A stretch of 36,045 bases of DNA from a virus, in the IMG/VR virus record IMGVR_UViG_3300032046_006284, positions 1 to 36,045 of that record; one strand, written 5' to 3'. Under the pieces are notes generated by a model. That model was not told where the DNA came from, made no database searches, and saw nothing but the letters and a program-made list of their open reading frames with translations. The translations under genes and the position numbers were made by a program. Positions 7,809-35,204 of the stretch are shown here, piece by piece (within the stretch, counting starts at the first letter, position 1; every line of letters begins with the position of its first letter).

Positions 7809-9137
7809 TCACGCCTCCTCCACCCCGGCTCCAGCAGGAGTCGGGGTGCTCTTGGCCTCGATCCTCTCGGCCTTCCTGCCGGCGAAGCGCTCCCAGCGCT
7901 GCACGATCACGTCGCAGTACAGCGGGTCGATCTCCATCAGGAAGGTGTGCCGGCCCGTCTGCTCGGCCGCGATCAGCGTGCTGCCCGAACCGCCGAAGAG
8001 GTCCAGGACGTTCTCGCCGACCAGCGATGAGTACTGCATGGCCCGCACCGCCAGCCCGACGGGCTTCTGGGTTAAATGCAGGTAGTCCTGAGGGTTGTCC
8101 TTCTTAATGTGCCACAGATCCGGGACGTTCGGAGGGCCGTAGAAGACATGAGCAGCCCCCTCCTTCCAGCCATAGAACGCCCACTCATGGGCCCCCATGA
8201 AATCCTTCCTTGTCAGCACCGGGTGGAGCTTGTCCCAGATGATCATCTGGCTGAAGTACAGTTCGCTTTCCTTCAGCGCGTTGGGATAGTTCCAGATGTT
8301 GCTGTACCCGCCCCAGATGTAGAAGCCGCGCCCTGGCTCCAGCACGCGCGTGATGTTGCCGAACCACGCCCGAAGCAGTCGAGCGAACTCCTCGTCGGAG
8401 ACGAAGTCGTTGACCAGCGGCCGGTCCTTGGCCCGCAGCTTCTTGTCCGTCGCGTGGGTCTTGCCCCGGATGGCCCTGTCCATGCCCTGCTGGCCGATGG
8501 GCCGGTCGCCGGTAGCGGCGATAGCATTGTTGCTTCGGGAGGCCACGCCGACGTTGTACGGCGGATCGGTGTTGACCAACTGGACGCGGGCGCCGTCCAG
8601 GAGGCGGTCCACATCCTCGGGCTTGCCGCTGTCGCCACAGAGCAGGCGGTGGTTGCCCAGGATCCACAGGTCGCCCGGCTTGGTAACGGCTTCATCCGGC
8701 GGGGCGGGTACGTCGTCGGGGTCCGTCAGGCCCTGCGTGCCGTCGGGATCGAGAATCTTGGCCAGTTCGTCGGCGTCGAATCCCAGCAGGTCGAGGTTGT
8801 AGTCGGCCGCCTGGAGGTCCTTCAGTTCGATGGGCAGCAAGTCCATGTCCCATTCGGCCAGTTCCGCCGTCTTGTTGTCGGCGATGCGATAGGCCTTCAC
8901 CTGCTCGGGCGAGAGGTCCTGGGCGACGTGGACCGGCACCTTGGCCAGGCCCAGCTTCCTGGCCGCCTTCCAGCGGGTGTGCCCGCAGATGATCACGCCA
9001 TCGACATCCACGACGATGGGCTGGCGGAAGCCAAACTCGCGCAGGGACGCCGCCACGGCGTCGACGGCGTCGTCGTTGACGCGGGGGTTCTTGTCGTAAG
9101 GCCGGATCGAGTCAATGTCCCGAAGTTCAACCTGCAT
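7809..9137 (-). CDS. ParB-domain / DNA N4-N6 methyltransferase fusion
   Basis: A 442-residue phage modification enzyme. Residues 1-110 are a ParB/Srx-like domain (RPYDKNPRVND, GHTRWKAARKLG, RIADNKTAELAEWD). The methyltransferase follows, with catalytic motif IV as NTDPPYNV (DPPY at 191-194) ahead of the AdoMet-binding motif I near the C-terminus (DLFGGSGSTLIAAE), the order of the beta class. DPPY indicates exocyclic amino methylation, most likely N6-adenine; the substrate site cannot be read. No restriction partner is adjacent, so it is probably an orphan enzyme protecting phage DNA or regulating expression. The start at 9137 has GGAGGT 5 bases upstream; a 69-codon upstream extension has no support. 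The gene converges on the HARE-HTH gene with 14 bases between stops. Confidence 0.93.
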   Translation of the reverse strand: MQVELRDIDSIRPYDKNPRVNDDAVDAVAASLREFGFRQPIVVDVDGVIICGHTRWKAARKLGLAKVPVHVAQDLSPEQVKAYRIADNKTAELAEWDMDLLPIELKDLQAADYNLDLLGFDADELAKILDPDGTQGLTDPDDVPAPPDEAVTKPGDLWILGNHRLLCGDSGKPEDVDRLLDGARVQLVNTDPPYNVGVASRSNNAIAATGDRPIGQQGMDRAIRGKTHATDKKLRAKDRPLVNDFVSDEEFARLLRAWFGNITRVLEPGRGFYIWGGYSNIWNYPNALKESELYFSQMIIWDKLHPVLTRKDFMGAHEWAFYGWKEGAAHVFYGPPNVPDLWHIKKDNPQDYLHLTQKPVGLAVRAMQYSSLVGENVLDLFGGSGSTLIAAEQTGRHTFLMEIDPLYCDVIVQRWERFAGRKAERIEAKSTPTPAGAGVEEA

Positions 9138-9364
9138 GGTGCACCTCCGTGTGCTGGGTTTGGGAAAACCGGACAGCGCAAAGCAACTCTGTCTAACACC
9201 GCGACCGTTTCCGCCGCGGTCACCGCGCCTGCGGCCAGGAAGGAACCGGGCCTTGGCTGGGACTTCGCCCAGCCAAGGTGGTCGCTGCGCGACAGATGAA
9301 TGAGTATCCTGCTCGGCTGGAATAGCAGGCACGTCGTTATCCATCCGGGACAGGAGAACACAGC
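9138..9364. promoter_or_regulatory. divergent intergenic region with strong hairpin
   Basis: Separates the methyltransferase gene (leftward) from the 570-residue gene (rightward) and so should hold both promoters; I could not pick convincing -35/-10 pairs. It contains a perfect 11-base inverted repeat, CCTTGGCTGGG at 9251-9261 and CCCAGCCAAGG at 9268-9278, with a 6-base loop. There is no U-run on either strand, so an operator or leader structure is more likely than a Rho-independent terminator. Confidence 0.45.
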
Positions 9365-11077
9365 GTGATCGGCGACGACGCTTTCACTCGGTACTATGCC
9401 CCTCTGCTTGACGACATGTACGACGTGGTGGACCGCATCGCCCTCAATGCCCGATACAATTTCGCGTGCAGCCCCGGCGGATTTCGGGAATGGTGGTTCG
9501 ACCGTTACGGGACATTCGACAATCTCAACGACACGTTCCTGATGCGACAGGCGGGCCGATTCTCCCGACGCGCTCGCGGCTGGGCCAGGAAGCACAACGT
9601 CCCATTCGTTGAATGCGAGGCTGGCACTCGCAAGGACCGGCTCATCAAGGACTACCTCCCTTCCGATCCGAACTTCACGGGCGTGTTTGCCATCTTGACG
9701 TCCCGCAGACCGTCGCCTGTATGGCAAGTATTGCGATGTGAGAATAGTCCGGGCAGCTTCCATCTTCAGCGCAGAGACCCCATGCCGTGGGTCAAGCACT
9801 ACCACTTCCACATCATGGACAGGACCTGGGGACACGTGATCGTCGCGATGAGCGGCCATCCGCCGTTTCAAGCGTTGGTCATCCTCAACGGGCACGAATA
9901 CACGGCATGCCAAGCCCGGCGCAAACACATCCAGTTCGAGAAGGAGGGCAATTGCTTCACGTCGATGTCCGACTCTCGCGGATTTGCCGAGGTTGCAGAA
10001 TCCTTGCGGCGGCCGGCCGCTGTAGGGCAACTGAAGCAGATATGCGACCGTTGGACGCATTGGTGCGCCAGCTTCGGCGTCTCGTTCGCGGAACAAAAAC
10101 GCACCCGGTTCCGCTACGAGTATTCCGTCTTCGAGGTGGAGTACAGCCGCAACCTGCTGTTCCATTGCGGGCGGTACATGGAGCGCGTGTTCGATGGAGT
10201 GATCGACCGGACTCGCGCCACGATGGACGTCAAACGGGTGATGAAGATATTCGGCTGGTACGTCCGACCGTTCAAACACACCTACAACTTCAACCGCGAG
10301 CAGGTTGTGCTCGAGAGACCTACGTATGACCTGACGGTGTTCAAGCTGCACTTCCGTGGCTTGACCCTGAAGATGTATACCAAAGGCGAGCGCGTCCTGC
10401 GGGCGGAGGCGATGGTCGAGCGGATCGACCGGCTGGAATGCGGCCGGTCGGTGGACAACTTCCTGGCCATGATCAAGGTACTGTCCGAACTGCTGGAGAC
10501 CTTCCTCAATCACCTCCAGTGCATCGACATGCCGTGGGTCGCAGAAGACCAACTGGACACGTTGGCCCAGCCGGGCCAGGTCGGTCAGACCCGCACCGCC
10601 GGGCTGGACATCGACAAGCCCAGGATACGCGCTGCCATTCATGGGGTGCTGGCCTTGTCCCTCAAGCCCGGGGGATTCACCGCCGCCGAACATGCCGCCA
10701 AGATCAATGAACTGACGGGCGGTGAATTGCATTACACGACCAGGCAGTCGGCGTATGACCTCAAGAAGGTTCGCGGCAAGGGACTCCTGCTCAAGGCGCA
10801 CCCTAATGCCAGGCGATACCAGGCTGAACCCGATGCACTGCGAACGATGAGCGGCCTGATCGTCCTGCGCCAGAAGGTCATCGAACCGCTGCTCAAGTAC
10901 CTCGGCCGGGCCAAGAGCGGCAACGTCCCGCGAGAGACGGCGAAGCTCGATCAGTATTTTCGGGACATGCAGCATGTGATGGTCAAGGTCTTCCAAGAGC
11001 TTCACCTCATCGGCGAGCACTCGCTGAACAAGGTGCTGGCTGTCGGCTGGACATCGCGTCGCCAGCGGCGTGCATAG
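9365..11077 (+). CDS. 570-residue protein of unknown family
   Basis: I do not recognise a described domain. The protein is basic and Arg/Trp/His-rich. Distinct segments: an N-terminal EWWFDRYGTFDNLNDTFLMRQAGRFSRRARGW, a central HYHFHIMDRTWGHVIVAMSGHPP followed by ALVILNGHEYTACQARRKHI (residues about 143-196, with several His and paired polar residues that could form an active site), a region of aromatic and charged residues, and a helical C-terminus from about 420. I believe related multi-copy proteins occur in other environmental bacteria without known function. GTG start, CAGGAG 8 bases upstream. It lies on the opposite strand to the genes on both sides and is flanked by a hairpin region and by the GTGAAAC repeat array, so it behaves like an inserted unit. 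Confidence 0.75.
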   Translation: MIGDDAFTRYYAPLLDDMYDVVDRIALNARYNFACSPGGFREWWFDRYGTFDNLNDTFLMRQAGRFSRRARGWARKHNVPFVECEAGTRKDRLIKDYLPSDPNFTGVFAILTSRRPSPVWQVLRCENSPGSFHLQRRDPMPWVKHYHFHIMDRTWGHVIVAMSGHPPFQALVILNGHEYTACQARRKHIQFEKEGNCFTSMSDSRGFAEVAESLRRPAAVGQLKQICDRWTHWCASFGVSFAEQKRTRFRYEYSVFEVEYSRNLLFHCGRYMERVFDGVIDRTRATMDVKRVMKIFGWYVRPFKHTYNFNREQVVLERPTYDLTVFKLHFRGLTLKMYTKGERVLRAEAMVERIDRLECGRSVDNFLAMIKVLSELLETFLNHLQCIDMPWVAEDQLDTLAQPGQVGQTRTAGLDIDKPRIRAAIHGVLALSLKPGGFTAAEHAAKINELTGGELHYTTRQSAYDLKKVRGKGLLLKAHPNARRYQAEPDALRTMSGLIVLRQKVIEPLLKYLGRAKSGNVPRETAKLDQYFRDMQHVMVKVFQELHLIGEHSLNKVLAVGWTSRRQRRA

Positions 11078-11473
11078 CGACAAAATGTTGTCGATACGGG
11101 GCGCGGAAGGGTTCCGTGAAACGAGGGAAGATGGGCAAGGTGCGCGTCCACGTTCGCGCCGGGTGTCTGGCCGTATCCTTGCTCGACCACGCAAGAGATC
11201 GCCCAACCTGCGCCAACGTGGCGCGACCTGCGCCGCGCCTTGGACGGGCACGTTTCACCTTTCACCCTTTCACCCCTCGTGCGCGTGCGCGGACGTGTCG
11301 CGCGGGCATGCGGGTGAAACGTGGGAAAGGAGATATAGAAGAGAGAGACGTTGTTGTTTTTACTATACATTCGCGCTGTCCCACGTTTCACCCCATGCCG
11401 GTGAAACCAGGGTGAACTTTGACCGTCCAGAGACCCGAAAACGCGCGACCGCGCCCACGATTCACCCCAGGTT
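11078..11473. other. gene-free GTGAAAC repeat region with AT-rich core, candidate replication origin
   Basis: The stretch between two converging genes holds no convincing gene. It is filled with copies, on both strands, of a motif with consensus GGGTGAAACGTGGG (11116, 11249, 11260, 11268, 11312, 11380, 11400, 11461, 11470, 11477). Two full copies at 11312-11326 and 11379-11393 form a perfect 15-base inverted repeat that brackets an AT-rich segment (about 11330-11372). In the rightmost cluster the repeats recur about every 11-12 bases, one helical turn. Iterons plus an AT-rich unwinding region next to the primase gene suggest a phage origin; an operator array is the alternative. Confidence 0.5.
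11312..11393. repeat. perfect 15-base inverted repeat flanking AT-rich core
   Basis: The left arm 11312-11326 is GGGTGAAACGTGGGA and the right arm 11379-11393 is its exact reverse complement, with 52 bases between. The interior includes a purine run (AGAAGAGAGAGA) and GTTGTTGTTTTTACTATAC, the most AT-rich piece of the surrounding kilobases. A 52-base loop makes a transcription terminator unlikely. Confidence 0.7.
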
Positions 11474-11492
11474 TCACCCACGTTTCACCCCC
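11470..11492. repeat. phased GTGAAAC repeats overlapping the end of the primase gene
   Basis: Two tandem copies (on the minus strand GGTTTCACCC and CCCACGTTTCACCCCC reversed) overlap the stop codon of the Prim-Pol gene, so that its last residues GVKRG are spelled by the repeat. A third partial copy is at 11461-11468. Spacing between equivalent bases is 11-12. Confidence 0.6.
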
Positions 11493-13705
11493 TGCGCCAG
11501 GCGGTATTCGACCTTCGCCGATCCGGCCCGTGGCGTCGTGATAGACTCGATGTCACCGCGCTGGATGAGCGTGGTGGTCAGCTCCTGGAACCTGCGGCAA
11601 TCCATCTTCATCCGCTTGAGCAGCGTGCTGTGGGCCAGCGTGCAGTTGGGGCTGGCGCGGAGCTTGCGGATGACCTTCAGGCACTCGGCGTCGAACTCGC
11701 CCTCGGCGACGTGCTGGCTGGCCATGAAGAGCATGCGGCGCGTCTGGTGCTGGACGAACGCGGACGCCCAGGCGACGGCTTCACGATCAACTGTCGGGTT
11801 CTGATGGTCCTGGCTGACGGCGTGTATGAGCGCCAGCTTGCGAACGTTCTCGCTGACGCGGCCCCAGACGGTCGTGCCGACTTCGTCCTTGACGGCCTCG
11901 GCCTTGTCGTACTCGACCTCGGCGGCGCGTCTGGTCTCGATCAGCAATGCCTTGGCGTCATCGGTCTGCGGGACGATGGCCGGGATGGGATGGATGTTCA
12001 GCAAGTTGCCCTTGCGCTCGCCGGGCTGGTAATCCGCCCACCAGCGGGCAGTCTCGACCAGGCGGGACGGCAGGTCGCGGATGGACGGTTCCTGCCCGTC
12101 CCCGCGTGCCCCGGCCTCCAGGACGATCATGCGGGCGAAAAAGCCGTTGGAGAGCATGCGGGACGAGAGCGCCTGGTAATAGTGCGTCGGCACGGCCGTG
12201 CCGAAGATGGTCAGGCTGGGCTGGTCGATCGCGCCGGGGTTCTGGTCGCCTGCCTTGCGCCGCATGGGATAGACCGACGCGCTGCTGGTGTACATCGTCA
12301 GCAGCGTGCCCATGAGATTCTCCTGACGGCCGTCCTTGCTCTTGCTGATCGACTGGAGCATGGTGTCGATCTCGTCGGTCTGAAAGAGCATCGCGGGCTG
12401 GAGGAACAAGGCGTCCTGGATGCCTTCCCCGCTGGCGAACTTGTCGCCGACGCAGTGGCCCAGGCCAACCTCGTACAGCAATCGTGTGTTAATCCTCCTG
12501 GGCCAGTCCTTGCCGGCCGACGAGAACGCCAGGCCCAGCAGATACAGGTTCGTGCGGTTGTCCCCGCCATCCCGCACCTTCCGCCCGGCCAGGAATGACT
12601 GCATGGCCAGCGCGCCGCAGAAGGCCATGATCGGATTTGGGTACGGGGCGGTCTCCATGCAGAAGTCCATCAGTTTGCCGACGAAGCCCGGCACGCGCAG
12701 GAGTTCCGGTGGGATCGGGCCGGAGTCCTCGACGATGGGTTGCGGTGGTTCGCTATCCGGCACGATGCCGGCCATGATGCCCGACAGGTCGACCACGGGA
12801 TCGGGCGAATCCTGTCCATATCCCTGTGTCCGAAGGGTGCTGGCGGCGGCCGAATAGTCGCCGTTGTGCTCCAGCAGCGCGTACACGCCGAATGGGCCGT
12901 ATGCCTTGCCCGGCTCGAAGGGCGCGGCGTTGGACGAGAAGACGTACAGCACGCCGTCTTTCAGCGTGGCCGACCAGCCGGAAGACTTGCCCGGCCTGCG
13001 CCAGTACTCATTCTCACCGCCCTTGGCCAGTGTCCAGCCGTGCTTGACCAGGACGGCCCGCACGTCGCCATGCGCCGCAAAGTCGTCGCCGGGTCGGCCC
13101 ACGTTCGGTGCCCCGACCGGGGTCGGCTCGGGGGCCGGGACGTGCTCGTTCAGTGCCCAGGCGACCGACAGGAGGATGTCACGCTCCTCGGCTGTCAAAG
13201 TGGGTAGGTTGGCGAACCCGCCCCGCACCAGCGTGTAACCCGGCGACGGGGCGCAGAGGAACAGACCGCCCTCGCCGCGGGTCTCGATCAGCGTCTGGAG
13301 CTTGCCGTCCGTGCCCCTGCGCTGGGCGAGTTTCAGGTTGCCGCAAACGGGCGCGGCGCAGCGATAGACGGCGTGTAGACCGCCGCGCTGGCTGTGCTCC
13401 ATGACCAGGCGGGCCAACAGGCCGGGGGCCTGTTCCTCCACGAGCTGCGCCCAGCGGTCGAACAGCGCGCCGCCGGCGTCGAAGTCGATCATCTCCAGGT
13501 TGCCGGAGATGGCCCCGGTGAGGATGCACAGCGCGTGGCCGTTGCTGAACCACGCCCGGACCTCCACATCGGTGGGCAAACGCCGCTGGTACTGCTTCCA
13601 CGACGCCACGACGGGGCGCTTCTGGTCCAGCCGGGCGGGCAGGACGCACAGGCGGGCCTCGCGGTAGGCCAACGCGGCATTCAGCATGTCGGGGGAATCG
13701 GCCAC
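11474..13705 (-). CDS. bifunctional DNA primase/polymerase with DUF3987-type helicase domain
   Basis: The replication initiator of the phage, 743 residues. The N-terminal Prim-Pol (AEP) domain shows the metal-binding EMIDFDAGG (D74, D76), HSQRGGLHAVY in place of the usual SGGxH motif, and LIETRGEGGLFLCAPSPGY. From about residue 340 a DUF3987-type P-loop domain follows (MAFCGALAMQSFLAGRK, LGLAFSSAGKDWPRR as a weak Walker A, FQTDEIDTMLQSI as Walker B-like). Together these would open DNA and synthesise primers. GTG start at 13705 with GAGG 8 bases upstream; the ATG six codons on is an alternative. It sits 9 bases downstream of the helicase gene, in the same operon, and its 3' end lies inside the GTGAAAC repeat region, a plausible origin for it to act on. 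Confidence 0.88.
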   Translation of the reverse strand: MADSPDMLNAALAYREARLCVLPARLDQKRPVVASWKQYQRRLPTDVEVRAWFSNGHALCILTGAISGNLEMIDFDAGGALFDRWAQLVEEQAPGLLARLVMEHSQRGGLHAVYRCAAPVCGNLKLAQRRGTDGKLQTLIETRGEGGLFLCAPSPGYTLVRGGFANLPTLTAEERDILLSVAWALNEHVPAPEPTPVGAPNVGRPGDDFAAHGDVRAVLVKHGWTLAKGGENEYWRRPGKSSGWSATLKDGVLYVFSSNAAPFEPGKAYGPFGVYALLEHNGDYSAAASTLRTQGYGQDSPDPVVDLSGIMAGIVPDSEPPQPIVEDSGPIPPELLRVPGFVGKLMDFCMETAPYPNPIMAFCGALAMQSFLAGRKVRDGGDNRTNLYLLGLAFSSAGKDWPRRINTRLLYEVGLGHCVGDKFASGEGIQDALFLQPAMLFQTDEIDTMLQSISKSKDGRQENLMGTLLTMYTSSASVYPMRRKAGDQNPGAIDQPSLTIFGTAVPTHYYQALSSRMLSNGFFARMIVLEAGARGDGQEPSIRDLPSRLVETARWWADYQPGERKGNLLNIHPIPAIVPQTDDAKALLIETRRAAEVEYDKAEAVKDEVGTTVWGRVSENVRKLALIHAVSQDHQNPTVDREAVAWASAFVQHQTRRMLFMASQHVAEGEFDAECLKVIRKLRASPNCTLAHSTLLKRMKMDCRRFQELTTTLIQRGDIESITTPRAGSAKVEYRLAQGVKRG

Positions 13706-13714
13706 TCAATCGCC

Positions 13715-16591
13715 TCAGAACGGGATGTCGTCATCGGGCGCGACCGGCGCGCAATCCGGCTCCGGCGACGCGCGGTCCAACTCGCCGTCGCTCTCGGCCG
13801 GCGCAGGCATGCCGTCTTCACCCAGCGGGCCGTTGGGCACGAACGGCGGGTAATCGTCCGCGCCCTCGCCGGCGAGCCGGTCGCGGTCCATGAGCGGCGG
13901 CTTGGGCCCAAGCTTGTGCGCGATGATCCGGTCGTACTTCTCGCCGCTGACGTGGCGAACCGTGATGGCCTGGGTCTGGCAGATGCCCCCGGCCCGGCAG
14001 ACTGCAACCGCTTCATCGACGTCGGCCGGGACCGGCTCGTCAGACCGCTGCCGCCACCAGGCCTCGGCCTTGGCGCGGGCGTAGCCGGCGTGCTCGAAGC
14101 AGACCCACTCGGAGATGTACCGCTGCCAGCCGATGCGATATTCCACGCGCATCGTGCGTGGGGCATCCTCTGAGGCGTCCCGCTTGACGTGGACGCCGTA
14201 GGACACTTCCTGGACCGGATGCTCGGTGTCCTCCACCTGGCCCGACAGCACGCCCGCCGTGGAGGCGGTCGTGTCATGCCTGTTGCGCTGCGGCGGCGGG
14301 AACTGATATCCGCACTCCGGGCAACAGGCATAGGCAGCGTGAATCACCGCCTGGCATTGGGGACATTCCTTCGCCGGGGCCTGGCCGTTGCCGCCGGCGC
14401 GGTCCTTGATCTGAAGGGCATCGACAGGACCGTGGCGCAGGACGTTCCCGCCGAAGTCCAGGACCAGACAATCGGCCTTGGACGGATGCAGCCGGAACCC
14501 GCGGCCGACCATCTGGTAATAGAGGCCCGGCGAGAGCGTCGGGCGCAGCATGGCCACGCAGTCGATGTTCGGCGCATCGAATCCCATCGTCAGGACGTTG
14601 ACGTTGACCAGGTACTTCAGGTCGCCCTCGCGGAACTGTTCCAGCAGCGCCGCCCGCTCGGCGGAAGGCGTCTCGCCGCAGACGAAGCCGCATTCCTGGC
14701 CATGCCCCAACGTCAGCGCCGTCTGGATATGCCTGCCGTGGCCGACGCCGCTGGCGAAGACCAGGACGCTGTGCCTGTCGGCCGTCAGTTCGACCAGCTC
14801 CGCGCAGGCCGCGTTGACCAGGTCGTCGCCGTCCATCAGGTCCTCGACCTCGGCGGCCACGAACTCGCCGCCCCGCACGTGCAGGCCCGACGTGTCAACC
14901 TTCGCCTTGCCGGCCTTAGTCTTCAGGCCGCAGAGGTATCCCTGGACTATCAGTTCACGGACGCCGACCTCGTAGCAGACATGGTTCAGCAGGTTGTCCG
15001 GGCCGCAGATCATGCCCGTTGTCATCCGAAACGGCGTCGCGGTCAGGCCGATCAGGCGGACGTTGGGGTTGACGACCCTGGCCTCGGCCAGGAACGTGCG
15101 ATACATGCCCTCGCCCTCCGGCGGCAGCATGTGACATTCGTCCAAAAGGATCAGATCAAACCTGTCGAGTTCCGCCGCGCGGCGGTAGACGCTCTGGATG
15201 CCGGCGACGATGATGGGCTTGTTGGTGTCCCGGCTGCGAAGGCCGGCGGAATACACGCCGATGTGCATCCACAGGTCCGGGGCCATGACGTGGAGCTTCT
15301 CCACCGACTGTTCGAGCAGCTCCTTCACGTGGGCCATGACCAGCACCCGGCCGCCCCACAGGCCCACCACGTCGCGGCAGATGGCGGCCAGGAGCGGCGT
15401 CTTGCCGCTGTTGTGGTGGACCATGAAGTGCCCGTCCACGTACAGGTGATCGCCATCGAGCAAGAAACCGAAATACAGGCCCCGCCCGGCGGGCTCGACC
15501 GTGAACCCGGTTCGCAGCACCGATTTCTTCTGCTTCCGTGCCGTTGGCTTGCGCCGAACCAGTCGGCACGGCACCTGTGTGAAATCGCCCCAGATGGACA
15601 AGCGATAGAACCATCCGCCCGCCCCCGTCTGGCACTCAGAGTACTTCCGCGTGCAATGGACGGCGAATCCCAGGCTGCGAGCCAAGAAGGCGATGTCGGC
15701 CGCCAGCTCGCGCGACTTGGTCGTATAGTCGGCACCGCTGCTGGTCGCGGCACCGTCACTATCCATCAACCCCGCCAGAAGACAGAGGCGATCATGCCCG
15801 CTTGCGGTAAGGTATGCTTGCGGAATGAACTTTCTGCCGGAGTCCAAGCCCGATAGGCCCAGCGCGCCCAAGGCTTCAGTAGCCACGTTGAATCTGCCGC
15901 GGGATCGGACCAGCGTGTAGGTGGGGCAGCGCCCGCCGCTGGCGTTCACGGATGTCTCGCAGCCGAGAAGACGAGCGTATTCCTCCCAAGCATCCGCGAT
16001 CTCATCATCGGCCGTCGTCAGGTCGGCCACGCCCTCGGTCAACCCGCCGTCTCCCAAGAGAAGGCCAAGAATGTACGGGGGCACGGGCAAGCTGGCCGGG
16101 TCTGTGAAGTCGACCGCAACGCTGTAGAGCTTGCGGAGATGTCTCCATGATCGCGGCTTGGCCAGGTACTGGCGGACCGAGACGTTGTCGATTTCCCCTC
16201 CCTGCCGGTAGCAACTGAACTGGGGCTTGCCTGCATTCGTGCATACCAGCGAGAGGACATGATCGGCATTGACCACGAACGGGTTGCCGCGATGCGGGAT
16301 GATGCGATAGAGGTCATCTTCGCCCCGGCAGAGGGCCTGAACGCGGCGGGGTTGACTGTCCGGTCCCATCAGCAGGTCGCCGACAGCGACGTCTTCCACC
16401 GGCTTGAGCGTCCCGTCAAACATCAAGATCGGGTGTCCTGCGGCATGACACCCCGTGGGCATGACGACGACCGGATTGTCGTCGCGCCGGCGCAGGTGGC
16501 CGTACACGGCGTCCAGCGCCTCGGCCTGATATGGTCGGAGCACGATCATTGGCGGCCGGGCGGCCGGGATGTATAATGCGCCCGCTGTCAT
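13715..16591 (-). CDS. SF2 DEAD/DEAH-type helicase interrupted by an intein
   Basis: 958 codons; after splicing, a 611-residue helicase. Extein motifs: Walker A split as VVVMPTG (41-47) and SGKTPLL (395-401), motif II LILLDECHML, motif III LTATPFR, motif VI QMVGRGFRLHP, and near the C-terminus a four-Cys zinc ribbon (CPQCQ...CCPECG). The acidic C-terminus ends DDDIPF, a pattern seen on proteins that dock to single-strand binding or clamp proteins. It probably unwinds phage DNA during replication or recombination, since it belongs to the operon with the Prim-Pol protein. ATG at 16591 lacks a clear ribosome site; Met15 is a possible later start. The zinc-ribbon gene at 16613 diverges from it with only 21 bases between start codons. 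Confidence 0.93.
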   Translation of the reverse strand: MTAGALYIPAARPPMIVLRPYQAEALDAVYGHLRRRDDNPVVVMPTGCHAAGHPILMFDGTLKPVEDVAVGDLLMGPDSQPRRVQALCRGEDDLYRIIPHRGNPFVVNADHVLSLVCTNAGKPQFSCYRQGGEIDNVSVRQYLAKPRSWRHLRKLYSVAVDFTDPASLPVPPYILGLLLGDGGLTEGVADLTTADDEIADAWEEYARLLGCETSVNASGGRCPTYTLVRSRGRFNVATEALGALGLSGLDSGRKFIPQAYLTASGHDRLCLLAGLMDSDGAATSSGADYTTKSRELAADIAFLARSLGFAVHCTRKYSECQTGAGGWFYRLSIWGDFTQVPCRLVRRKPTARKQKKSVLRTGFTVEPAGRGLYFGFLLDGDHLYVDGHFMVHHNSGKTPLLAAICRDVVGLWGGRVLVMAHVKELLEQSVEKLHVMAPDLWMHIGVYSAGLRSRDTNKPIIVAGIQSVYRRAAELDRFDLILLDECHMLPPEGEGMYRTFLAEARVVNPNVRLIGLTATPFRMTTGMICGPDNLLNHVCYEVGVRELIVQGYLCGLKTKAGKAKVDTSGLHVRGGEFVAAEVEDLMDGDDLVNAACAELVELTADRHSVLVFASGVGHGRHIQTALTLGHGQECGFVCGETPSAERAALLEQFREGDLKYLVNVNVLTMGFDAPNIDCVAMLRPTLSPGLYYQMVGRGFRLHPSKADCLVLDFGGNVLRHGPVDALQIKDRAGGNGQAPAKECPQCQAVIHAAYACCPECGYQFPPPQRNRHDTTASTAGVLSGQVEDTEHPVQEVSYGVHVKRDASEDAPRTMRVEYRIGWQRYISEWVCFEHAGYARAKAEAWWRQRSDEPVPADVDEAVAVCRAGGICQTQAITVRHVSGEKYDRIIAHKLGPKPPLMDRDRLAGEGADDYPPFVPNGPLGEDGMPAPAESDGELDRASPEPDCAPVAPDDDIPF
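15410..16450 (-). other. LAGLIDADG intein within the helicase Walker A motif
   Basis: Codes residues 48-394 of the precursor, 347 residues. Block A begins at Cys48 (CHAAGHPILMFDGTLKPVEDV); block B is around NADHVLSL; two LAGLIDADG helices of a homing endonuclease are at ILGLLLGDGG and CLLAGLMDSDGA; block F/G ends in LDGDHLYVDGHFMVHHN with Asn394 and extein +1 Ser395. Cys at the start, His-Asn at the end and Ser in +1 are the residues needed for splicing, and both endonuclease acidic residues (Asp181, Asp278) are present, so it looks active for both functions. The insertion point, between TG and SGKT of a P-loop, is a classic intein site. Confidence 0.95.
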
Positions 16592-19777: not shown

Positions 19778-20002
19778 TCAGTTGCACAGTTCTTCCATGT
19801 CCATCCACCATTCCGGGTTGTTCAGCAGGGCCCGGAGGGTCCGGGCTTCCTTCTCCGTGATGGACACGATCGTCTGTTCCGTGGGGCTCTCGGCCGCGGC
19901 CAGCCTCAGGTACGTGCAGTGGCCGATCCGTTCCCACCAGCACTCGGCCGCCGGCGAGAGCGTCGCCGGGTCGCTGCGAGGATTGGGCTTGGCGGCAGTC
20001 AT
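19778..20002 (-). CDS. hypothetical small protein
   Basis: 74 residues, MTAAKPNPRSDPATLSPAAECWWERIGHCTYL then mostly helix ending ALLNNPEWWMDMEELCN. No domain recognised; the Trp pairs at each end are notable. The ATG shares ATGA with the Sak4-like gene stop and GGGAGGGG lies 5 bases upstream. It sits between the Sak4-like ATPase and DUF669 genes. Confidence 0.65.
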   Translation of the reverse strand: MTAAKPNPRSDPATLSPAAECWWERIGHCTYLRLAAAESPTEQTIVSITEKEARTLRALLNNPEWWMDMEELCN

Positions 20003-20706
20003 GACGCCCCTCCCATCGCCTTCATCAGGGCCGGCCAGGACAGCTCCAGCGGCCCGGCGATCCCGTAGCGGTTCTTGGCCAGGAGTTGGTTGGTCTCGCA
20101 CAGGATGAGTTCACGGCCGGAGGCGGCAACGTGTGCGGTGCCCACGAAGTCGGACCACTCGATCATCGTGTTGGCCAGGTCGGAGTGGATTTCGGGGGAG
20201 GATTTCTCGATGGTCAGCCCGTCGATGGTGGTGATCTCGCGCCGCGTGGCGTGGGCCAGCAGCACCACGGCGATTCCGGCGTTGACGATCCTGTCCAACG
20301 TCGGCAGCAGGTACTGGTAGACGTAGTTCTTCAGCACCTGCCGGCCGTTGCCGTACCCGCCGTGGGAACGATTGAGGGTCTGCTTCATCCCCGCTGCCGT
20401 CCCGTCCACGCCGGAGACGTGCTCCTCGATGCGCCGAAGCAGCCAATCGATGGAGTCGATGACGACGGTGCCGTACTCGTGGCCGCCGGCCGCCAGGGCG
20501 TCCAACCACGCCTGGATCGAGGGCCAGTCGCACAGGTACGGCGTGCGGTCGCACTTGACGTGCGCGGCCCCGTTCTCGCAGTCCACGATGATCGGCTTGC
20601 TGGCGTTGGCCCCGAAGGTCGTCTTGCCGGCCCCCGGCGGGCCGTAGACGATGCCCTTGGGGGCCCGCATGTGCGTCTGGTTCAGAACGGTCGATGGCAA
20701 TGGCAT
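19999..20706 (-). CDS. Sak4-like RecA-fold ATPase
   Basis: 235 residues. Walker A is VYGPPGAGKTTFGA (about 20-33), Walker B VVIDSIDWLLRR, followed by a RecA-like core (YLLPTLDRIVNAGIAVVLLAHATRREI) and DFVGTAHVA; it belongs to the AAA_24/Sak4 group of phage annealing or strand-exchange proteins. Neighbours fit a recombination module: DUF669 protein, RusA and a PD-(D/E)XK exonuclease. The ATG at 20706 is chosen because the match begins just after it; the frame extends 21 codons upstream but that part is weak. A 147-base gap with a hairpin separates it from the exonuclease gene. Confidence 0.88.
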   Translation of the reverse strand: MPLPSTVLNQTHMRAPKGIVYGPPGAGKTTFGANASKPIIVDCENGAAHVKCDRTPYLCDWPSIQAWLDALAAGGHEYGTVVIDSIDWLLRRIEEHVSGVDGTAAGMKQTLNRSHGGYGNGRQVLKNYVYQYLLPTLDRIVNAGIAVVLLAHATRREITTIDGLTIEKSSPEIHSDLANTMIEWSDFVGTAHVAASGRELILCETNQLLAKNRYGIAGPLELSWPALMKAMGGAS

Positions 20707-20776
20707 ATCTCTTGCCCTTTCTGTTTGGGTTTCCGAAGGTGCATCACTCACGTTTGGCCGGCCGGCCATTTCGGGC

Positions 20777-20795
20777 GGCGGGAGTCGAACCCGCC
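20777..20795 (-). other. tRNA T-arm-like hairpin between recombination genes
   Basis: On the minus strand the sequence GGCGGGTTCGACTCCCGCC forms a 6-base stem with a 7-base TTCGACT loop and contains an exact tRNA B-box (GGTTCGACTCC). Further 5', GTCA and TGAC pair around a 7-base loop ACGGAAA. No matching acceptor or D arm can be drawn, so it is not a complete tRNA. It lies in the 147-base gap between the exonuclease and Sak4-like genes. Confidence 0.4.
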
Positions 20796-20853
20796 CGGCG
20801 GGACCGTCATTTCCGTTGACCTGTCGCGCCGCCGCCTCCGGGGCCCGGATGTT

Positions 20854-21666
20854 TCAGATCGCGTCGAAGACGCGGACCTCCTCATAGCCGGTGGGCCAGA
20901 CGCCCAGCCGCCGGCACTCCTTCAGCCGCTCGATGGCTGCGGCGTTCTCGCGGGCGCAGCCGTCCAGCAACTCCGTCAGCACCGGGAAGACGCCCGCCCG
21001 ATACGGCTCCTTCTTCTCCACCGCGATGAAATGCACTGGAACAACCACCCCGGTCGCCGCCGCCAGCACCGACCGATAGAACGCCATCTGGTAGGCGTAG
21101 CCATAGCGCCGGCCGTCGGCTAGGAAGTAGTCGATGTCGTCGCAGGTCTTGAGGTCCACGATGCCGCGGCCGGGATTGAGCCAGTCGATGCGAATCTGGC
21201 AGGGCATGCCGCAGTAATCGGTCCGCACAACGCCCTCGGCGATGCCGTCGACGATCAGGTCTACGGCCCGCTCGTTCATGGCCACCCCGACGGCCATGTT
21301 GTCGATCAGCACCTCTTGCTTGGTCGAGATGATGGGCTTGCCTTGCGCATCGGCCCAGTTCTGATATGCCTGCGAGTCGCTCTTGAACGGCTTACCGGTG
21401 GTCTTGTTGACCGGGCCGTCGCTGACTAGGTAGCGCCTGGCGAACTCGTCAAGGCCCTCTAGGATGCGGCAGTGCGTTGCGCGGCCGATGAAATATGCTT
21501 GGCGGTCGGGTTTCGCGATCAGACCCAGGCAGTCCTTGTGGTAGAGCAACGGGCACTTGCGGAAGTCCGCCAGCCCGTGGCTGCCTAGGCACTCGCGGCC
21601 CTTGGCGTGGTAGACGTCCTCGGGCTCGTGAATCAGGATGCTCAGGTCTATGGCGTGGTCGTCCAT
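20854..21666 (-). CDS. PD-(D/E)XK exonuclease, DUF3799/exonuclease VIII-like
   Basis: 270 residues. N-terminal YHAKGRECLGSHGLADFRKCPLLYHKD is the typical entry segment of RecE/exonuclease VIII-type nucleases; the active site is CQIRIDWLNPGRGIVDLKT with Asp and Asp-x-Lys of the PD-(D/E)XK motif, followed by the helix YGYAYQMAFYRSVL. It would resect double-stranded ends to feed the annealing ATPase encoded downstream. Start at MDDHAIDL (21666), AAAGG 6 bases upstream; 23 upstream codons overlap a hairpin and are unlikely. Preceded by the second copy of the AAATGTAG element and a strong hairpin. Confidence 0.9.
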   Translation of the reverse strand: MDDHAIDLSILIHEPEDVYHAKGRECLGSHGLADFRKCPLLYHKDCLGLIAKPDRQAYFIGRATHCRILEGLDEFARRYLVSDGPVNKTTGKPFKSDSQAYQNWADAQGKPIISTKQEVLIDNMAVGVAMNERAVDLIVDGIAEGVVRTDYCGMPCQIRIDWLNPGRGIVDLKTCDDIDYFLADGRRYGYAYQMAFYRSVLAAATGVVVPVHFIAVEKKEPYRAGVFPVLTELLDGCARENAAAIERLKECRRLGVWPTGYEEVRVFDAI

Positions 21667-21693
21667 GATTGCCTTTCCGGGGGACCGGCGGTC

Positions 21694-21731
21694 GGGGCCC
21701 CCGAACGCGCTCCATCGCGTTCGGAGGCCCC
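21694..21731. terminator. GC hairpin between sigma-like and exonuclease genes
   Basis: GGGGCCCCCGAACGCG (21694-21709) pairs with CGCGTTCGGAGGCCCC (21716-21731), 15 of 16 positions, with a 6-base loop. It lies after the stop of the sigma-like gene and 28 bases before the exonuclease start codon. No U-run follows on the minus strand, so attenuation or mRNA stabilisation is as likely as termination. Confidence 0.45.
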
Positions 21732-21749
21732 ACACTGCCCGCTCCTATC

Positions 21750-21786
21750 TCTCTACATTTACGCGAGAGGCAAAACTGTGCTGTTG
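21750..21786 (-). promoter_or_regulatory. AAATGTAG element, copy 2 (upstream of exonuclease gene)
   Basis: Matches copy 3 at 34815-34851 in 32 of 37 positions, including CAACAGCACA and CTCGCGTAAATGTAGAGA on the minus strand. Here it covers the last codons and TAA stop of the sigma-like gene. CAACAG and GTAAAT are 18 bases apart in both copies, a spacing suited to -35 and -10 boxes. Transcription would run into the exonuclease, Sak4-like and following genes. Confidence 0.45.
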
Positions 21787-22412
21787 CGGCCCAGAAAAAC
21801 CTGTAGATTCGCCTCCTTGAAGCACTCCCGGATTCGCTTCATCGCCCACCTGATCTCCGGCGGCGACGTGTTCAGGAGCTTGGCGGCCTTGCGGATGGAG
21901 TGGTGCATCAGCGCCCGCGCGATCTCTTGATGGCGCGGGGACAACCGGGCCAGAGCCGCCTCCATGTCGATCCGAAGGTCGGCCGTCGCGGCCGGATCGC
22001 CGCCGCCTTTGGCGGGGTCCACCACGGATTCGCCGAAGCCCTCCCCGAGGTCGTCAAAGCCGACGACCTGCGGAACATCCTCGTCCTGCCTGAGCATCAT
22101 CTGCCGCAGGTGGTAGCAGTAGCGCCGCCTCAGGACGCGGCTGATGAACGTCTTCCACGAGGACCGCTTGGCGTTGTAGCGGGGGATCGCCTGGACCAGC
22201 GCCATCAGCAGGTCCTGCGTCAGGTCTTCGCGCTCGTCGGGCGGAAGATGGAGCTTCTCCATCAGACGCTCGACCAGGTACTCGACCCTGTCGTGAACGT
22301 AGGCTTCGGCGGCGTCGGGCTTGACGCCGCCGACAATTCCGGCGACCAAATCGCCGATACTGTGGGGACGGTGCTTCTGAGGCTGTTTCTGGGGGGCGGT
22401 TTCCTGCGACAT
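21759..22412 (-). CDS. phage-encoded sigma70-like factor
   Basis: 217 residues. Region 2-like segment at about 40-105 (EYLVERLMEKLHLPPDEREDLTQDLLMALVQAIPRYNAKRSSWKTFISRVLRRR) and a region 4-like HTH at about 150-200 (ALARLSPRHQEIARALMHHSIRKAAKLLNTSPPEIRWAMKRI). These are the two domains of short ECF-type sigma factors. It could direct host polymerase to phage promoters. ATG has AAGGAG 8 bases upstream. It heads the leftward replication operon, consistent with an early or middle regulator, and its stop codon lies inside the AAATGTAG element. A plain HTH regulator is an alternative because region 2 is divergent. Confidence 0.8.
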   Translation of the reverse strand: MSQETAPQKQPQKHRPHSIGDLVAGIVGGVKPDAAEAYVHDRVEYLVERLMEKLHLPPDEREDLTQDLLMALVQAIPRYNAKRSSWKTFISRVLRRRYCYHLRQMMLRQDEDVPQVVGFDDLGEGFGESVVDPAKGGGDPAATADLRIDMEAALARLSPRHQEIARALMHHSIRKAAKLLNTSPPEIRWAMKRIRECFKEANLQVFLGRNSTVLPLA

Positions 22413-26316: not shown

Positions 26317-26416
26317 AGGAGTCTGCCGACTCGGTAGCAATGGAAAGTCCTGACTGTTATTCATGGCTTGTATGAGCCTTGACGTAGGCCGAGGATTCCT
26401 TCCAAGGAGAAGGGCA

Positions 26417-27436
26417 ATGAAAGCCAAGGTCGCACTCGCAACTGTTCTTGTCCCCCTGTTCGCGGTACTTGCGGTTTATGCCGGTTTGGCGTGGATCAAC
26501 AACGTCTGCATCGTGACACAATGGGACCCTCAATCGCCCAACAAGGTCTATCACGGGCCCATGCGCTACTTCGACGTTTACGCGGTCGACTTTTCGACCG
26601 CCACCACATTCATTCCTTTCTTCGGTTTTGGGCTGATTGCGGCTGGGCTCATCAGGATCCTCATGAACGCGTCTTCGCGGAACCCAACACCGACGGCATC
26701 GAAATATTTCCCGTTCTTCCTCTGGTACAATCCCATCATGATCAACCTCGGGCTCATCGGGACAGTCTGGGGCCTGATTATGATCGGGTTCTACCCTGAT
26801 AATATTGGCATGAAGGATCTCATCCACTGCCTTAACACCGCGCTCTACTCCACTCTGGTCGCCCTGGTATGGGTGTACACGCTTGTCATCCCGCTGAGGC
26901 GTGTGATGCAGTGGCTCTACAAAGGCGACGCAGCGATTGCCGACCCGCAGGCATCCGACCTCGAGTCCGGGTTCAGAAAACTGGGTAACGCGACTGCCCA
27001 AGCGGGCGGAAACATCGGCGAAATGGCGAAGAGCGCATCTTCGGCCAATGCTGAGATCAACAACATGACGACCGCGATGAAGGGCGCCGAGGGCAGAATG
27101 AGCGGCATGTTCGCCAAGCAGAACGAAGTCCTTGATCGCCTGAGTGCGGCAGCCCAGGCTCACCAGAGCCTTCTGGATGAGCACAAGCGGTGGATGCAGA
27201 ATGCTGCCGAAGAGCTTGAAGCGGAGAGGGCACAGAGGCAGAAGGCGGAACAGGATCGGAATGACGAGAGGCAGTGCCGCGAGAAGGTGGAAAAGGATGC
27301 GCAGGCCGCTGCGAAGGAGCGGGATGACGAGAGGGCACGCAGGCTGAAAGCGGATCAGGATCGCGACGTCGCCAACGCGGCACTTGACAAGACCAGGGAC
27401 CAACTGAGGAAAGTCAAGAAGCTCGTCACGGAATGA
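26417..27436 (+). CDS. cargo operon gene 4: MotA/TolQ/ExbB-type channel subunit with coiled-coil tail
   Basis: 339 residues. Four predicted membrane spans (about 5-27, 64-82, 104-125, 140-160). The last two carry the family hallmark: INLGLIGTVWGLIM and TALYSTLVALVWVYTLVIP, with Thr116 and Thr146 at the positions of the ion-path threonines of ExbB. From residue 170 to the end is a cytoplasmic tail, first Ala/Ser/Met-rich, then a charged coiled coil (EELEAERAQRQKAEQDRNDERQ...). ExbB/MotA proteins form pentamers that turn ion flow into movement; a long tail of this sort is seen in ZorA of the Zorya defence system, but no other Zorya gene is near. AAGGAG lies 7 bases before ATG at 26417. Confidence 0.8.
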   Translation: MKAKVALATVLVPLFAVLAVYAGLAWINNVCIVTQWDPQSPNKVYHGPMRYFDVYAVDFSTATTFIPFFGFGLIAAGLIRILMNASSRNPTPTASKYFPFFLWYNPIMINLGLIGTVWGLIMIGFYPDNIGMKDLIHCLNTALYSTLVALVWVYTLVIPLRRVMQWLYKGDAAIADPQASDLESGFRKLGNATAQAGGNIGEMAKSASSANAEINNMTTAMKGAEGRMSGMFAKQNEVLDRLSAAAQAHQSLLDEHKRWMQNAAEELEAERAQRQKAEQDRNDERQCREKVEKDAQAAAKERDDERARRLKADQDRDVANAALDKTRDQLRKVKKLVTE

Positions 27437-27451
27437 ACAAGGGAGACTGCC

Positions 27452-28312
27452 ATGAACAACATACTGCAACTCATAAGGGAGCGTTTCGGCGGCTCTGACG
27501 AGGAGACTGGCATGACAGAGGCGCTCTCGAACATGGTGCAGATCACCATGGCGGCGCTCATGATATTCATCATGATATCGGTGCTCTTCATCGCCAAGTC
27601 CAGGGCCGAGGTCGAGGAACTCAAGGGAAAGCTGCCATACTACGTGAACAGCCTAGAACAGATCAGGAACACTGAACCTGGAATGGCTCACACGGAGCGC
27701 GAGCAGGCGCTCATCGAAGTCCAGCGGCAGAAGCTTCTGAGAGCCCTGGATGCGCTGGAGTCTGAGACCCGGACAAAACTGGCGCTCAGTGTGTTTGCCA
27801 GGAGCAATAACGACGGCAGCATTGATTACGCCGTAGACGGCGTGCTTGTCGGCGACAAGGTCTCGGACAGGCACTTCATCGAAGGCTGCAAATTTGCCTC
27901 GCAGAACCTACCGTACCACGACAGGATTTGCCAAGACTGGCTCACCTGCGTGCTTCTCAGGTCTGAGATGACGCTGAGAGACAGCCCCGGCAACATCATC
28001 GTCGGCCAGACTCCACAGATCGTGGAAGAGGGCAACGAATCATGGCTGAAAGAAGAGATCAGGAAGAGGATTGACGGGCTCTACAAGGACACATGCTCGT
28101 TGCAGCGCGCAGTCCTCGCCCGGCTTCAGAGCTTCTACAGGAGCAACCAAGAGGCGCTGAAGGGGACCGAGGTCTACGGGTTAGTAACGAGCTACTTCTC
28201 GGCCAAGCCTGAAGAGCGTAGCAGTATGGTCTCCAGGATCAGCAGCGAACTCTACAGGCAGGCTAAATCTGTGTTTGAGCAGCAGGGCGTTCCGCTGCTC
28301 AGCGGCGTGTAG
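27452..28312 (+). CDS. cargo operon gene 5: single-span partner of the channel subunit
   Basis: 286 residues with a short cytoplasmic N-terminus, one membrane span (about 25-48, LSNMVQITMAALMIFIMISVLFIA), then a soluble, mostly helical domain. The topology, and the place directly after an ExbB-like gene, are those of ExbD/MotB/ZorB stator partners. However, the Asp that these partners carry in the span is absent (Asn and Gln are found instead), and no OmpA-type peptidoglycan-binding motif is visible. It may be a diverged or non-conducting partner. GGGAG lies 7 bases upstream of ATG; the gap to gene 4 is 15 bases. Arg is often encoded by AGG, unlike the phage genes. Confidence 0.7.
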   Translation: MNNILQLIRERFGGSDEETGMTEALSNMVQITMAALMIFIMISVLFIAKSRAEVEELKGKLPYYVNSLEQIRNTEPGMAHTEREQALIEVQRQKLLRALDALESETRTKLALSVFARSNNDGSIDYAVDGVLVGDKVSDRHFIEGCKFASQNLPYHDRICQDWLTCVLLRSEMTLRDSPGNIIVGQTPQIVEEGNESWLKEEIRKRIDGLYKDTCSLQRAVLARLQSFYRSNQEALKGTEVYGLVTSYFSAKPEERSSMVSRISSELYRQAKSVFEQQGVPLLSGV

Positions 28313-28339
28313 CGTGCTGAAAGCGGGAAGGAGAAGGCG

Positions 28340-30691: not shown

Positions 30692-32066
30692 CGGGTACAG
30701 CGGCTCGACTGCCGGTTGCGACGGGACCGCCAGCACATTCTGTGAGGAACTCGAAATGAAAACAAGACTCCCAGTTCTGTTTGTCCCTCTCATCGTTGCG
30801 GCTGCACAAAGCATCGCCGCAAACACCCCACCGACGGTAAGAATTGAGAGCCCGAAGGAAGGGTTGAAGGTCAGCGGGGCCGATGACATTTCATTCAAGG
30901 GCAGCGCAACAGACCTTGAGGACGGCGACATTGCGGGAGACAGGCTTGTCTGGACGTCAGACCTAGACAACTCCATTGGAGAAGGCAAGTCATTCGTTTG
31001 TAGGTTGTCCGAAGGCAACCACATCATCATCCTGACTGCCACAGACTCGAATGGCGCAAAGGGCAGGGGCTCGGTGTTTGTCATGGTCGAGGCCAGACCA
31101 AAGCCCGCGGAGACGCCTGTCACGCCAAGACCATCCGAGAAGCCCCAGGCCCAGCCAAGACCGCCGGCTGCGTCCGCGCCTGGAAAGACTCGGCTCGTGG
31201 CCGTCGGCAGGCTGAAAGGCGTCTGCTATGGCCCCTTCCGCGACAACGAGGGCCCCGATGTCGGCGTCTATCCGACAGCGGAAGAGATGGAAGCGGACTT
31301 CTCTTTGGTGCCGAAGGTGGCGTCTGCCGTCAGGACCTATGGGGCTTCAAACACTCCTGGAATGATCCCCGAGCTCTGTGACAAGGCCGGCGTCGACTGT
31401 TACGCAGGGGCATGGCTCGGCAAAGCTGAGGCCGCGAACGCCAAGGAAATCGAGGCATTACTCAAGGCCAGCGCGCAGAGGCTGAAACACACCAGGGCGC
31501 TGATCGTTGGCAACGAAGTTCTCCTGAGGAAAGACCTGAGCGAGGACGAGCTTGTCGGCTACATCAGGCAGGTGAAGAAGGCAACCGAGCTTCCTGTCAC
31601 GACTGCTGAGGACTGGCACCGGTGGCTGAAGCATCCCAGCCTCGCGAACGAGGTTGACTTCCTGCTGGTTCATGCACATCCGTACTGGGAGGGCGTACAT
31701 GTTGAGAATGCGGGGGAGCACGTGTTCAAGGTATGGAAGTACATGATGGCCGCGTTTCCCGGCAAGAGGGTCGTCATCGGCGAGACAGGTTGGCCCTCGG
31801 AAGGCGGCACCGTCGGAGAAGCAGTTGCCGGTAGAGACAACCAGGCACGCTTCATGAGCGACTTTGCGCACCTGGCGGAGAAGGAAGGCATCGAATACTT
31901 CTACTTCGAAGCATTTGATGAGAAGTGGAAGGCCAAATTCGAGGGCAGCGCGGGTGCATGCTGGGGCATCTACAACTCCGACGGTTCACTCAAGAAGCAC
32001 ATGGTGGGCATCGTTACTGTTAACGGCATCACCAGGAAGCCCAGGAAAGTCTCTCGTGTGGACGTT

Positions 32067-32512
32067 TCAGCACCGCTTCTTGTCTACACAGAACCCGGCT
32101 CGGACAGGAACGGGGTCCAGCCTTCCGGATGGACGACGTTCTCGCCACAATTGGCGCTGCCTTGCCCAGTGGGGCTCGGCCGCGATACGGCGGACATGCC
32201 GCTCGGGGATCGGCTCGCCCCCAGCCGTCACCCGCGGCAGGTGGAGCAGTTCCTCCTGGATGTCCGGGGCCAGGTGAAGCAGGTTCATGATCTGCGTCAC
32301 CCGGGCGCGGGTGACGTGGCCCAGGCGGGCGATGTCGGCCTGGTCGCGGACACCGCCCGATTCGAGCAGGCCATCGAAGTGGACCGCCAAGGCCATCAGG
32401 CGCGAGATACGCGGCACACGGCCGGCGGGAGTGTCGCGGACGGGGGCAGGGCCCGCCTCGATTCGGCGTTTGCCCTTATTGGCCATCGAGAAGTGTATCT
32501 GTCGCGTGACGG

Positions 32513-32528
<16 letters not shown>
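32067..32528 (-). CDS. ParB-like HTH protein of the integration module
   Basis: 153 residues. A central HTH (DQADIARLGHVTRARVTQIMNLLHLAPDIQEELLHLP) resembles the ParB/KorB DNA-binding fold, followed by RHVRRIAAEPHWARQRQLW. Proteins of this type are regularly encoded right after the large serine recombinase in such prophages and may control excision or its expression. The start at 32528 overlaps the recombinase stop by 16 bases, AAGG 5 bases upstream. The last about 20 codons after QLW read into the antisense of the cargo gene 7 sequence, so the original C-terminus is probably replaced. Confidence 0.75.
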
Positions 32529-34065
<1,537 letters not shown>

Positions 34066-34069
<4 letters not shown>

Positions 34070-34563: not shown

Positions 34564-34590
34564 GCGTGCTCTCCCGGCGCTCTCGCGCCG

Positions 34591-34785: not shown

Positions 34786-34812
34786 GTTCGCTCTTGGAAT
34801 GATGCCCTCCTG

Positions 34813-34851
34813 TATCTCTACATTTACGCGAGCATCGAAATTGTGCTGTTG
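34813..34851 (-). promoter_or_regulatory. AAATGTAG element, copy 3 (upstream of integration module)
   Basis: On the minus strand it reads CAACAGCACA, then CTCGCGTAAATGTAGAGA, 32 of 37 positions identical to copy 2 at 21750-21786, 13 kb away. Unlike copy 2 it does not overlap a gene, which argues for conservation of the DNA element rather than of a protein end. Confidence 0.5.
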
Positions 34852-34871
34852 AGGGCCGGAATCCGGACCGT

Positions 34872-35177: not shown

Positions 35178-35204
35178 ATAGCCCGCTGCCCAAACCAACT
35201 TCTA

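Follow-up and report, generated by a model that had tools for sequence, protein, structure and literature searches.

A conserved repeat array 3' of a phage Prim-Pol gene: a probable replication origin and its putative winged-helix initiator

Repeats and genes at the locus

The sequence analysed, hereafter the window, is the whole 36,045-base IMG/VR virus record IMGVR_UViG_3300032046_006284, and all positions are given in its numbering. An array of short repeats occupies the gap between two convergent genes, coding for a 570-aa protein (+ strand) and a Prim-Pol protein (- strand), and extends into the last codons of the latter. The features of the locus are reported in Table 1.

Table 1. Features of the array and of the adjoining genes, in window numbering
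Feature	Position	Strand	Remarks
ParB_N-methyltransferase fusion	7809-9344	-	Homologue follows the array, same strand, in 86/113 relatives
570-aa gene, family unassigned	9365-11077	+	Convergent with the Prim-Pol gene
Iteron, far group (AGGTGAAACGTGCC)	11247-11260	-	Matches the +200 to +220 group of relatives
Iteron, far group (GGGTGAAAGGTGAA)	11254-11267	-	
Iteron, far group (GGGTGAAAGGGTGA)	11262-11275	-	
Iteron, exact; distal arm of the convergent pair flanking the AT-rich element	11312-11325	+	Pair orientation kept in 87/111 relatives
Central AT-rich element; minus-strand reading ATGTATAGTAAAAACAACAACGTCTCTCTCTTCTATATCTCC, A-rich, then pyrimidine tract	11329-11370	-	Kept at loci whose iterons are unrelated
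Iteron, exact; proximal arm of the convergent pair	11380-11393	-	
Iteron, middle group (CGGTGAAACCAGGG)	11399-11412	+	
Degenerate iteron (GGGTGAACTTTGAC)	11410-11423	+	
Iteron, gene-proximal group (GGGTGAATCGTGGG)	11454-11467	-	
Iteron across the Prim-Pol stop codon	11466-11479	-	
Iteron, exact; within the last Prim-Pol codons	11477-11490	-	Coding overlap in relatives too
Predicted C-terminal winged helix, residues 670-736	11498-11698	-	Iteron halves covary with residues 691-701 (5' half) and 724-734 (3' half); covariation, model, fold search
Prim-Pol / AAA+ helicase / winged-helix protein, 743 aa, proposed initiator	11474-13705	-	Pfam, PHROG, fold search

Allowing one mismatch, the 36-kb window contains 15 copies of the motif GGGTGAAAC, compared with 7.2 expected by chance; nine of the 15 are clustered, on both strands, within 239 bp (11252-11490). 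Two further copies, with two mismatches each, are found at 11114-11127 and at the degenerate iteron of Table 1. Four copies are exact nine-mers, and the exact GGGTGAAACGTGGG is present at the three sites so marked in the table. A de novo 10-mer search of the 460-bp array region of the window gave a score of 21, compared with a maximum of 10 for shuffled sequences and of 9 for control windows of the same record. The array is a set of genuine clustered repeats, above chance. The at least ten copies in 380 bases, reported in an earlier note on this DNA, are reached if degenerate copies are counted, the strict figure (up to one mismatch) being nine in 239 bp; of the span assigned at that time, 11116-11492, the conserved part is about 11247-11490, and the 5'-most copy, at 11114, is without counterpart in relatives.

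The strongest iteron pair forms a perfect 15-bp inverted repeat (arms 11312-11326 and 11379-11393), still 94% complementary when lengthened to 18 bp, and an AT-rich stretch, 11327-11378, sits between the arms. The copies starting at 11454, 11466 and 11477 are spaced by 12 and 11 bp, a roughly helical phasing; the second and third of them run into the 3' end of the Prim-Pol gene, whose stop is at 11474. All these elements, namely the inverted repeat, the AT-rich stretch inside it and the helically phased copies over the gene end, had been described in the earlier note and are borne out. At 11466-11490, and at the equivalent position of relatives, the iterons entering the last codons give variable protein tails, rich in GVK/GET/GGE. 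DnaA boxes, which are frequent in plasmid origins and are no requirement for phage-initiated ones, were not found near the array (up to one mismatch), and their count over the whole window was not above chance.

The 743-aa protein contains a Pfam Prim-Pol domain (E 5.7e-12) and matches PHROG primase families. In the AlphaFold model (mean pLDDT 84.5), the N-terminus resembles the fold of pRN1 ORF904 (Foldseek E 9e-7 to 1rni; profile E 4e-4), and the closest folds found by Foldseek for the rest of the protein are MCM/ORC AAA+ proteins, with low or partial overlap. The C-terminal model (pLDDT 79.2) matches winged helices of the MarR, TFE and PadR types, with probability near 1 and modest E-values; in this model, helix 2 corresponds to residues 692-699, helix 3 to 703-716 and the wing hairpin to 719-736.

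The facing 570-aa protein shares 43% identity, over 96%, with a plasmid protein from Mycobacterium riyadhense; the latter protein is found at several places in its record, one of them near an IS4 transposase. No homologue was found in viral contigs by pattern, nor in phages, and the gene looks like an inserted mobile gene.

Conservation of the array among Prim-Pol relatives

Relatives of the Prim-Pol protein were collected from viral contigs and genomes, and reduced to 136 full-length proteins with less than 92% identity, nearly all from Planctomycetota prophages. For each of them, the region between -60 and +400 around the stop codon was searched de novo, on both strands, for its best 10-mer, without reference to GGGTGAAAC. 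The median score 3' of the gene was 18, whereas shuffles had a median of 7 and the 544 control windows from the same loci one of 8. The array scored better than all ten shuffles in 125 of the 136 relatives, and by more than two in 113; the other eleven, not above all shuffles, include L049-type proteins, with another type of winged helix. The relatives' own repeats were not in excess in the control windows of their loci. The array is kept across the Prim-Pol family; its lack of conservation in related phages had been named beforehand, in the earlier note, as grounds for abandoning the proposal. As a signature, GGGTGAAACGTGGG was uninformative in viral contigs, with more than 119 scattered matches, nearly all single.

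A common layout recurs at these loci. Proceeding outward from the gene end, it consists of up to three direct copies, one to three inverted copies, a direct copy, the AT-rich centre, an inverted copy and, about 200 bp past the stop, further direct copies. This layout persists where the repeat word is wholly different (GGTGAAAGAAG, GGTGAAACATG, GTGAAGGATT, GTGACGGATT, GCAATAGGTT, TTGCGGTATT and others); besides GTGAAGGATT, CAATAGGTT is also a non-cognate iteron type.

The AT maximum falls between the convergent iteron pair, at a median spacing of 60 bp, in 87 of 111 loci, and the AT excess over the locus mean is 0.35, compared with 0.16 in control windows. The centre sequence is common to different iteron types: an A-rich, TATA-like stretch is followed by ACAACAAC and then by CTCTCTCT, running from purine to pyrimidine whatever the repeat type. 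A profile of the centre had matches within the array at 56 loci, all of them on the gene-sense strand, and no match elsewhere; loci of this kind had served to build it. Runs of 10 or more pyrimidines were found in 79% of the arrays and in 7% of the controls. The central-element pattern is no signature by itself, since it produced 119 single matches in viral contigs, about the estimated chance number. According to a review, Prim-Pols favour two purines at the start, and mammalian primases favour pyrimidine templates (PMC10345425); because of these preferences, a primer-start site at the centre is plausible, and the centre may plausibly be seen as a candidate unwinding element and primer start.

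The methyltransferase gene that comes after the array on the same strand in 86 of the 113 relatives, together with a weak promoter match in the centre (GTGAAA-18-TATAGT), makes a regulatory role possible: the array could be an operator or promoter, by which the Prim-Pol winged helix regulates its own gene or the downstream methyltransferase gene. However, 23 array-bearing relatives have no methyltransferase homologue in the DNA examined, the downstream ORF runs in the opposite direction in 29 of 107 cases, and in the window the convergent 570-aa gene separates the array from the methyltransferase. The layout is also fixed to the Prim-Pol stop and not to that of the following gene, whose distance varies from about 200 to 1150 bp; a regulatory site is considered very unlikely. 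If the array is an origin, methylation near it may matter, because of the methyltransferase homologue that so often follows.

Arrays were also sought in distant isolates. A clear one was found in a Spartinivicinus plasmid (23 vs 11), a weak one in Sinorhizobium AP-16-3 and an at most marginal one in Synechococcus Ssp-JY40; the repeat search detected none in Roseobacter CRP-901 and Vibrio H188, nor in BPP-1, the latter result agreeing with the 2014 paper (PMC4234260). The same kind of N-terminal Prim-Pol, fused to other helicases, often has arrays of other words in the same place. Loci L064, L067, L068, L071, L073, L080 and L081, where Prim-Pol is followed by a different helicase and C-terminus, have such arrays directly 3' of the gene.

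Because the closest Prim-Pol relatives are mostly in Planctomycetota genomes, the host of the virus is probably a planctomycete. Cultured lysogens with a relative include Neorhodopirellula pilleata (L323) and Bythopirellula polymerisocia (L349). In one planctomycete chromosome (G004, CP087563) about 20 stretches match this Prim-Pol, and many related prophages would therefore coexist there.

Covariation of the repeat word with the winged helix

Iteron distances were compared with protein distances over 114 loci. The correlation with the winged helix was high (Mantel r 0.83; the largest value in 300 permutations was 0.16), whereas it was 0.25 with the Prim-Pol domain and 0.30 with the helicase. 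Given the winged helix, these two values dropped to -0.02 and -0.13, so that the rest of the protein explains nothing.

The two halves of the repeat were analysed separately on the 95 loci with iterons alignable in one register. For helix and wing residue ranges picked after viewing the alignment, the 5' half showed a partial r of 0.78 with residues 691-701 and of 0.02 with the wing, whereas the 3' half showed 0.68 with wing residues 724-734 and -0.03 with the helix; the remaining winged-helix residues did not exceed 0.14 with either half. This double dissociation recurs in the viral-only and in the genome-only subsets. A scan of all alignable columns, without preset ranges, assigned 98 of the top 100 residue-base pairs to the winged helix, which makes up 7.6% of the columns.

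Specific residues accompany specific bases. At positions 692-693, HS is found with GTGAA(A/T), HQ or RQ with GTGAAGG, and RR or RN with GTGACGG; at positions 728-729, GR is found with GAAG, TK, TN or TR with GATT, GW with C(A/T)T, and GS, GA or GT mostly with CGTG. Four residue-base rules were evaluated in phylogenetically independent pairs, taken from a tree built by a quick method on the Prim-Pol and helicase parts only, and held in 15:0, 14:0, 11:0 and 12:0 pairs (sign tests 6e-5 to 1e-3). Crossed controls, pairing the wing with base 7 and the helix with base 8, were not significant in independent pairs.

The rules were fixed before new genomes were fetched, and both strands were scored. 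Scoring covered 28 new non-redundant loci; arrays were present in 19, and nine loci were within the scope of the rules. In this small set, where seven loci belong to the commonest helix class, the predictions were correct for the 5' half in 9/9 cases and for the 3' half in 8/9, compared with 7/9 and 6/9 when the commonest class is guessed, and with 58% and 43% for mismatched assignment.

On the strength of this covariation, the winged helix very probably binds the array. The earlier note had listed the Prim-Pol and the 570-residue protein as candidate binders: the former is favoured by the covariation, and the latter was discarded, having no homologue in the 113 array-bearing relatives.

Pure linkage, with winged helix and array inherited as one cassette, was considered and rejected: helix and wing follow different half-sites and the rest of the winged helix follows neither, a double dissociation that linkage of neighbouring DNA cannot easily produce. 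Clustered sites for partition, packaging or attachment (parS, cos/pac, attP) do occur in phage genomes, and a gene for a ParB_N-methyltransferase is nearby; yet the repeat word tracks the Prim-Pol winged helix, and the integrase and tRNA-Asn are more than 20 kb distant, which leaves a site of this kind extremely improbable.

A wider proposal is advanced only tentatively. The winged helix may use a modular two-part code, in which the helix-2/turn region would read the 5' half and the wing the 3' half, without relying mainly on the canonical recognition helix. As the two parts would change separately, phages could alter their origins stepwise, and numerous origins independent of one another could coexist, even in one host with many such prophages, the conserved purine-pyrimidine centre possibly being their common melting and primer-start site. 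It is unusual that the covariation falls, according to the model, mainly on helix 2 and the wing and less on helix 3. Geminivirus Rep is a rolling-circle HUH Rep of ssDNA viruses, unrelated to the Prim-Pol system in both protein and mechanism. For this Rep, which has an iteron-related domain, two papers also describe initiator residues and iteron sequence as covarying (PMC12548392, PMC10611410).

The proposed origin and its known counterparts

Clustered repeats, an adjacent AT-rich region and an adjoining gene for the proposed cognate initiator, as expected of iteron-type origins, are all found at this locus. The array is likely to be a phage replication origin, or an origin combined with a P4-crr-like region, recognised by the phage's own Prim-Pol, and replication probably starts there. 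The origin reading of the earlier note is supported by the conservation of the array and by its covariation with Prim-Pol, from which we infer the role.

On this reading, the array follows the gene for its proposed initiator immediately on the 3' side, with a small overlap. The encoded protein is predicted to have three parts, with an archaeo-eukaryotic Prim-Pol at the N-terminus, an MCM/ORC-like AAA+ helicase after it and a winged helix at the C-terminus. The winged helix would bind about nine iterons, residues 691-701 (helix-2/turn) setting the 5' half (GGTGAA..) and wing residues 724-734 the 3' half, as the strong covariation suggests. From the layout, copies in two orientations, about 10-12 bp apart within groups, may load helicase rings on both sides of the AT-rich centre; the centre, flanked by the convergent iteron pair, would then melt, in keeping with its conserved AT excess. 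More speculatively, Prim-Pol could prime at the centre, where the conserved pyrimidine tract may be the start, with extension in both directions by other polymerases; priming on this tract and bidirectional forks are both speculative. A change in wing or helix 2 is accompanied by a change in the iterons, and related phages would therefore have distinct origins.

Phage P4 (NC_001609) is organised alike, with primase, helicase and C-terminal DNA-binding domain in one protein, and with iterons in mixed orientation directly 3' of the alpha gene (crr); the P4 iteron GGTGAACA resembles GGTGAAAC, and crr, used as a positive control, was recovered by the repeat search (20 vs 10). A C-terminal winged helix, the origin-binding domain of alpha-type proteins, is also predicted here. 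The primase of P4 is, however, of the DnaG/Toprim type (PMC4234260), whereas here it is a Prim-Pol, and sequence similarity between the Prim-Pol protein and P4 alpha was not detectable (best E 0.21). P4 also has a separate ori1. Because crr lies 3' of alpha and ori1 elsewhere, 3' arrays need not be the start site, and the present one, which like crr directly follows its gene and has iterons on both strands, could be a crr-like accessory or copy-control site bound by Prim-Pol, with replication starting elsewhere in the genome. Against this, no second motif cluster is present in the window (a record that may be incomplete), and the array has a conserved AT-rich centre, unlike an iteron-only region; a purely accessory site is judged unlikely.

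The pRN1 ORF904 system is similar in the Prim-Pol fold match, in the C-terminal winged helix and in the position of its essential cis region, just 3' of the gene. The pRN1 type also has an SF3 helicase, and for the helicase part of the present protein the nearest folds were MCM/ORC AAA+ proteins, with partial overlaps. Replication of pRN1 depends on a hairpin 3' of ORF904, and specific binding was not found there; a hairpin after a similar gene was also proposed for the origin of phage BIP-1 (PMC4234260). With inverted arms of 15-18 bp, the array might likewise act as a stem-loop or at the RNA level, either as a pRN1-like hairpin origin or as a bidirectional terminator of the convergent genes. 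But the arms are iteron copies, 46 nt apart, and the conserved feature is a fixed binding word varying with the protein; the array region, moreover, has neither an Rfam match nor a terminator-like site. A stem-loop is disfavoured and seems hardly credible. The 3' element of pRN1-type replicons is a large hairpin, whereas here it is a conserved iteron array.

As the Toprim primase of P4 and the hairpin of pRN1 both fail to find a counterpart, the system belongs to neither type: it is a combination of pRN1-type protein parts and P4-style iterons. Prim-Pols fused to helicases, some of them MCM-like, are known from the PrimPol-PV1/PrimQH families, where a C-terminal winged helix was suggested for origin recognition (Kazlauskas 2018, PMC5862659). 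That paper names no origin sequences and the word iteron is absent from it.

If correct, the origin reading describes a self-initiating replicon in the manner of P4 and pRN1, with a residue-base code deduced from covariation, and gives a concrete origin to a group of Planctomycetota phages that is large and mostly uncultured. It would tie a specific DNA word to a Prim-Pol initiator; the 2014 pRN1 study could not find such a word and used a hairpin model instead. The residue-base table can be put to a direct test in vitro, and would amount to a readable winged-helix recognition code; a known origin adjoining its initiator would be a starting point for replicating vectors in Planctomycetota.

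Other regions of the window were also inspected. A block at 26363-32792 (+) contains a membrane protein looking by eye like MotA/ExbB and a run of large genes, with lower GC; PADLOC gave no match on this block, which may be host or cargo DNA. At 19999-22412 (-), genes for a Sak4-like annealing protein and a RecE/exonuclease VIII-like nuclease adjoin a sigma-factor-like gene. A large serine recombinase gene adjoins tRNA-Asn (35104-35178), and this region, 32513-35178, is likely the prophage integration end. At 13715-16591 (-), an intein, consisting of a Hint domain and a LAGLIDADG homing endonuclease, splits a DEAD/ResIII helicase close to the Walker A motif.
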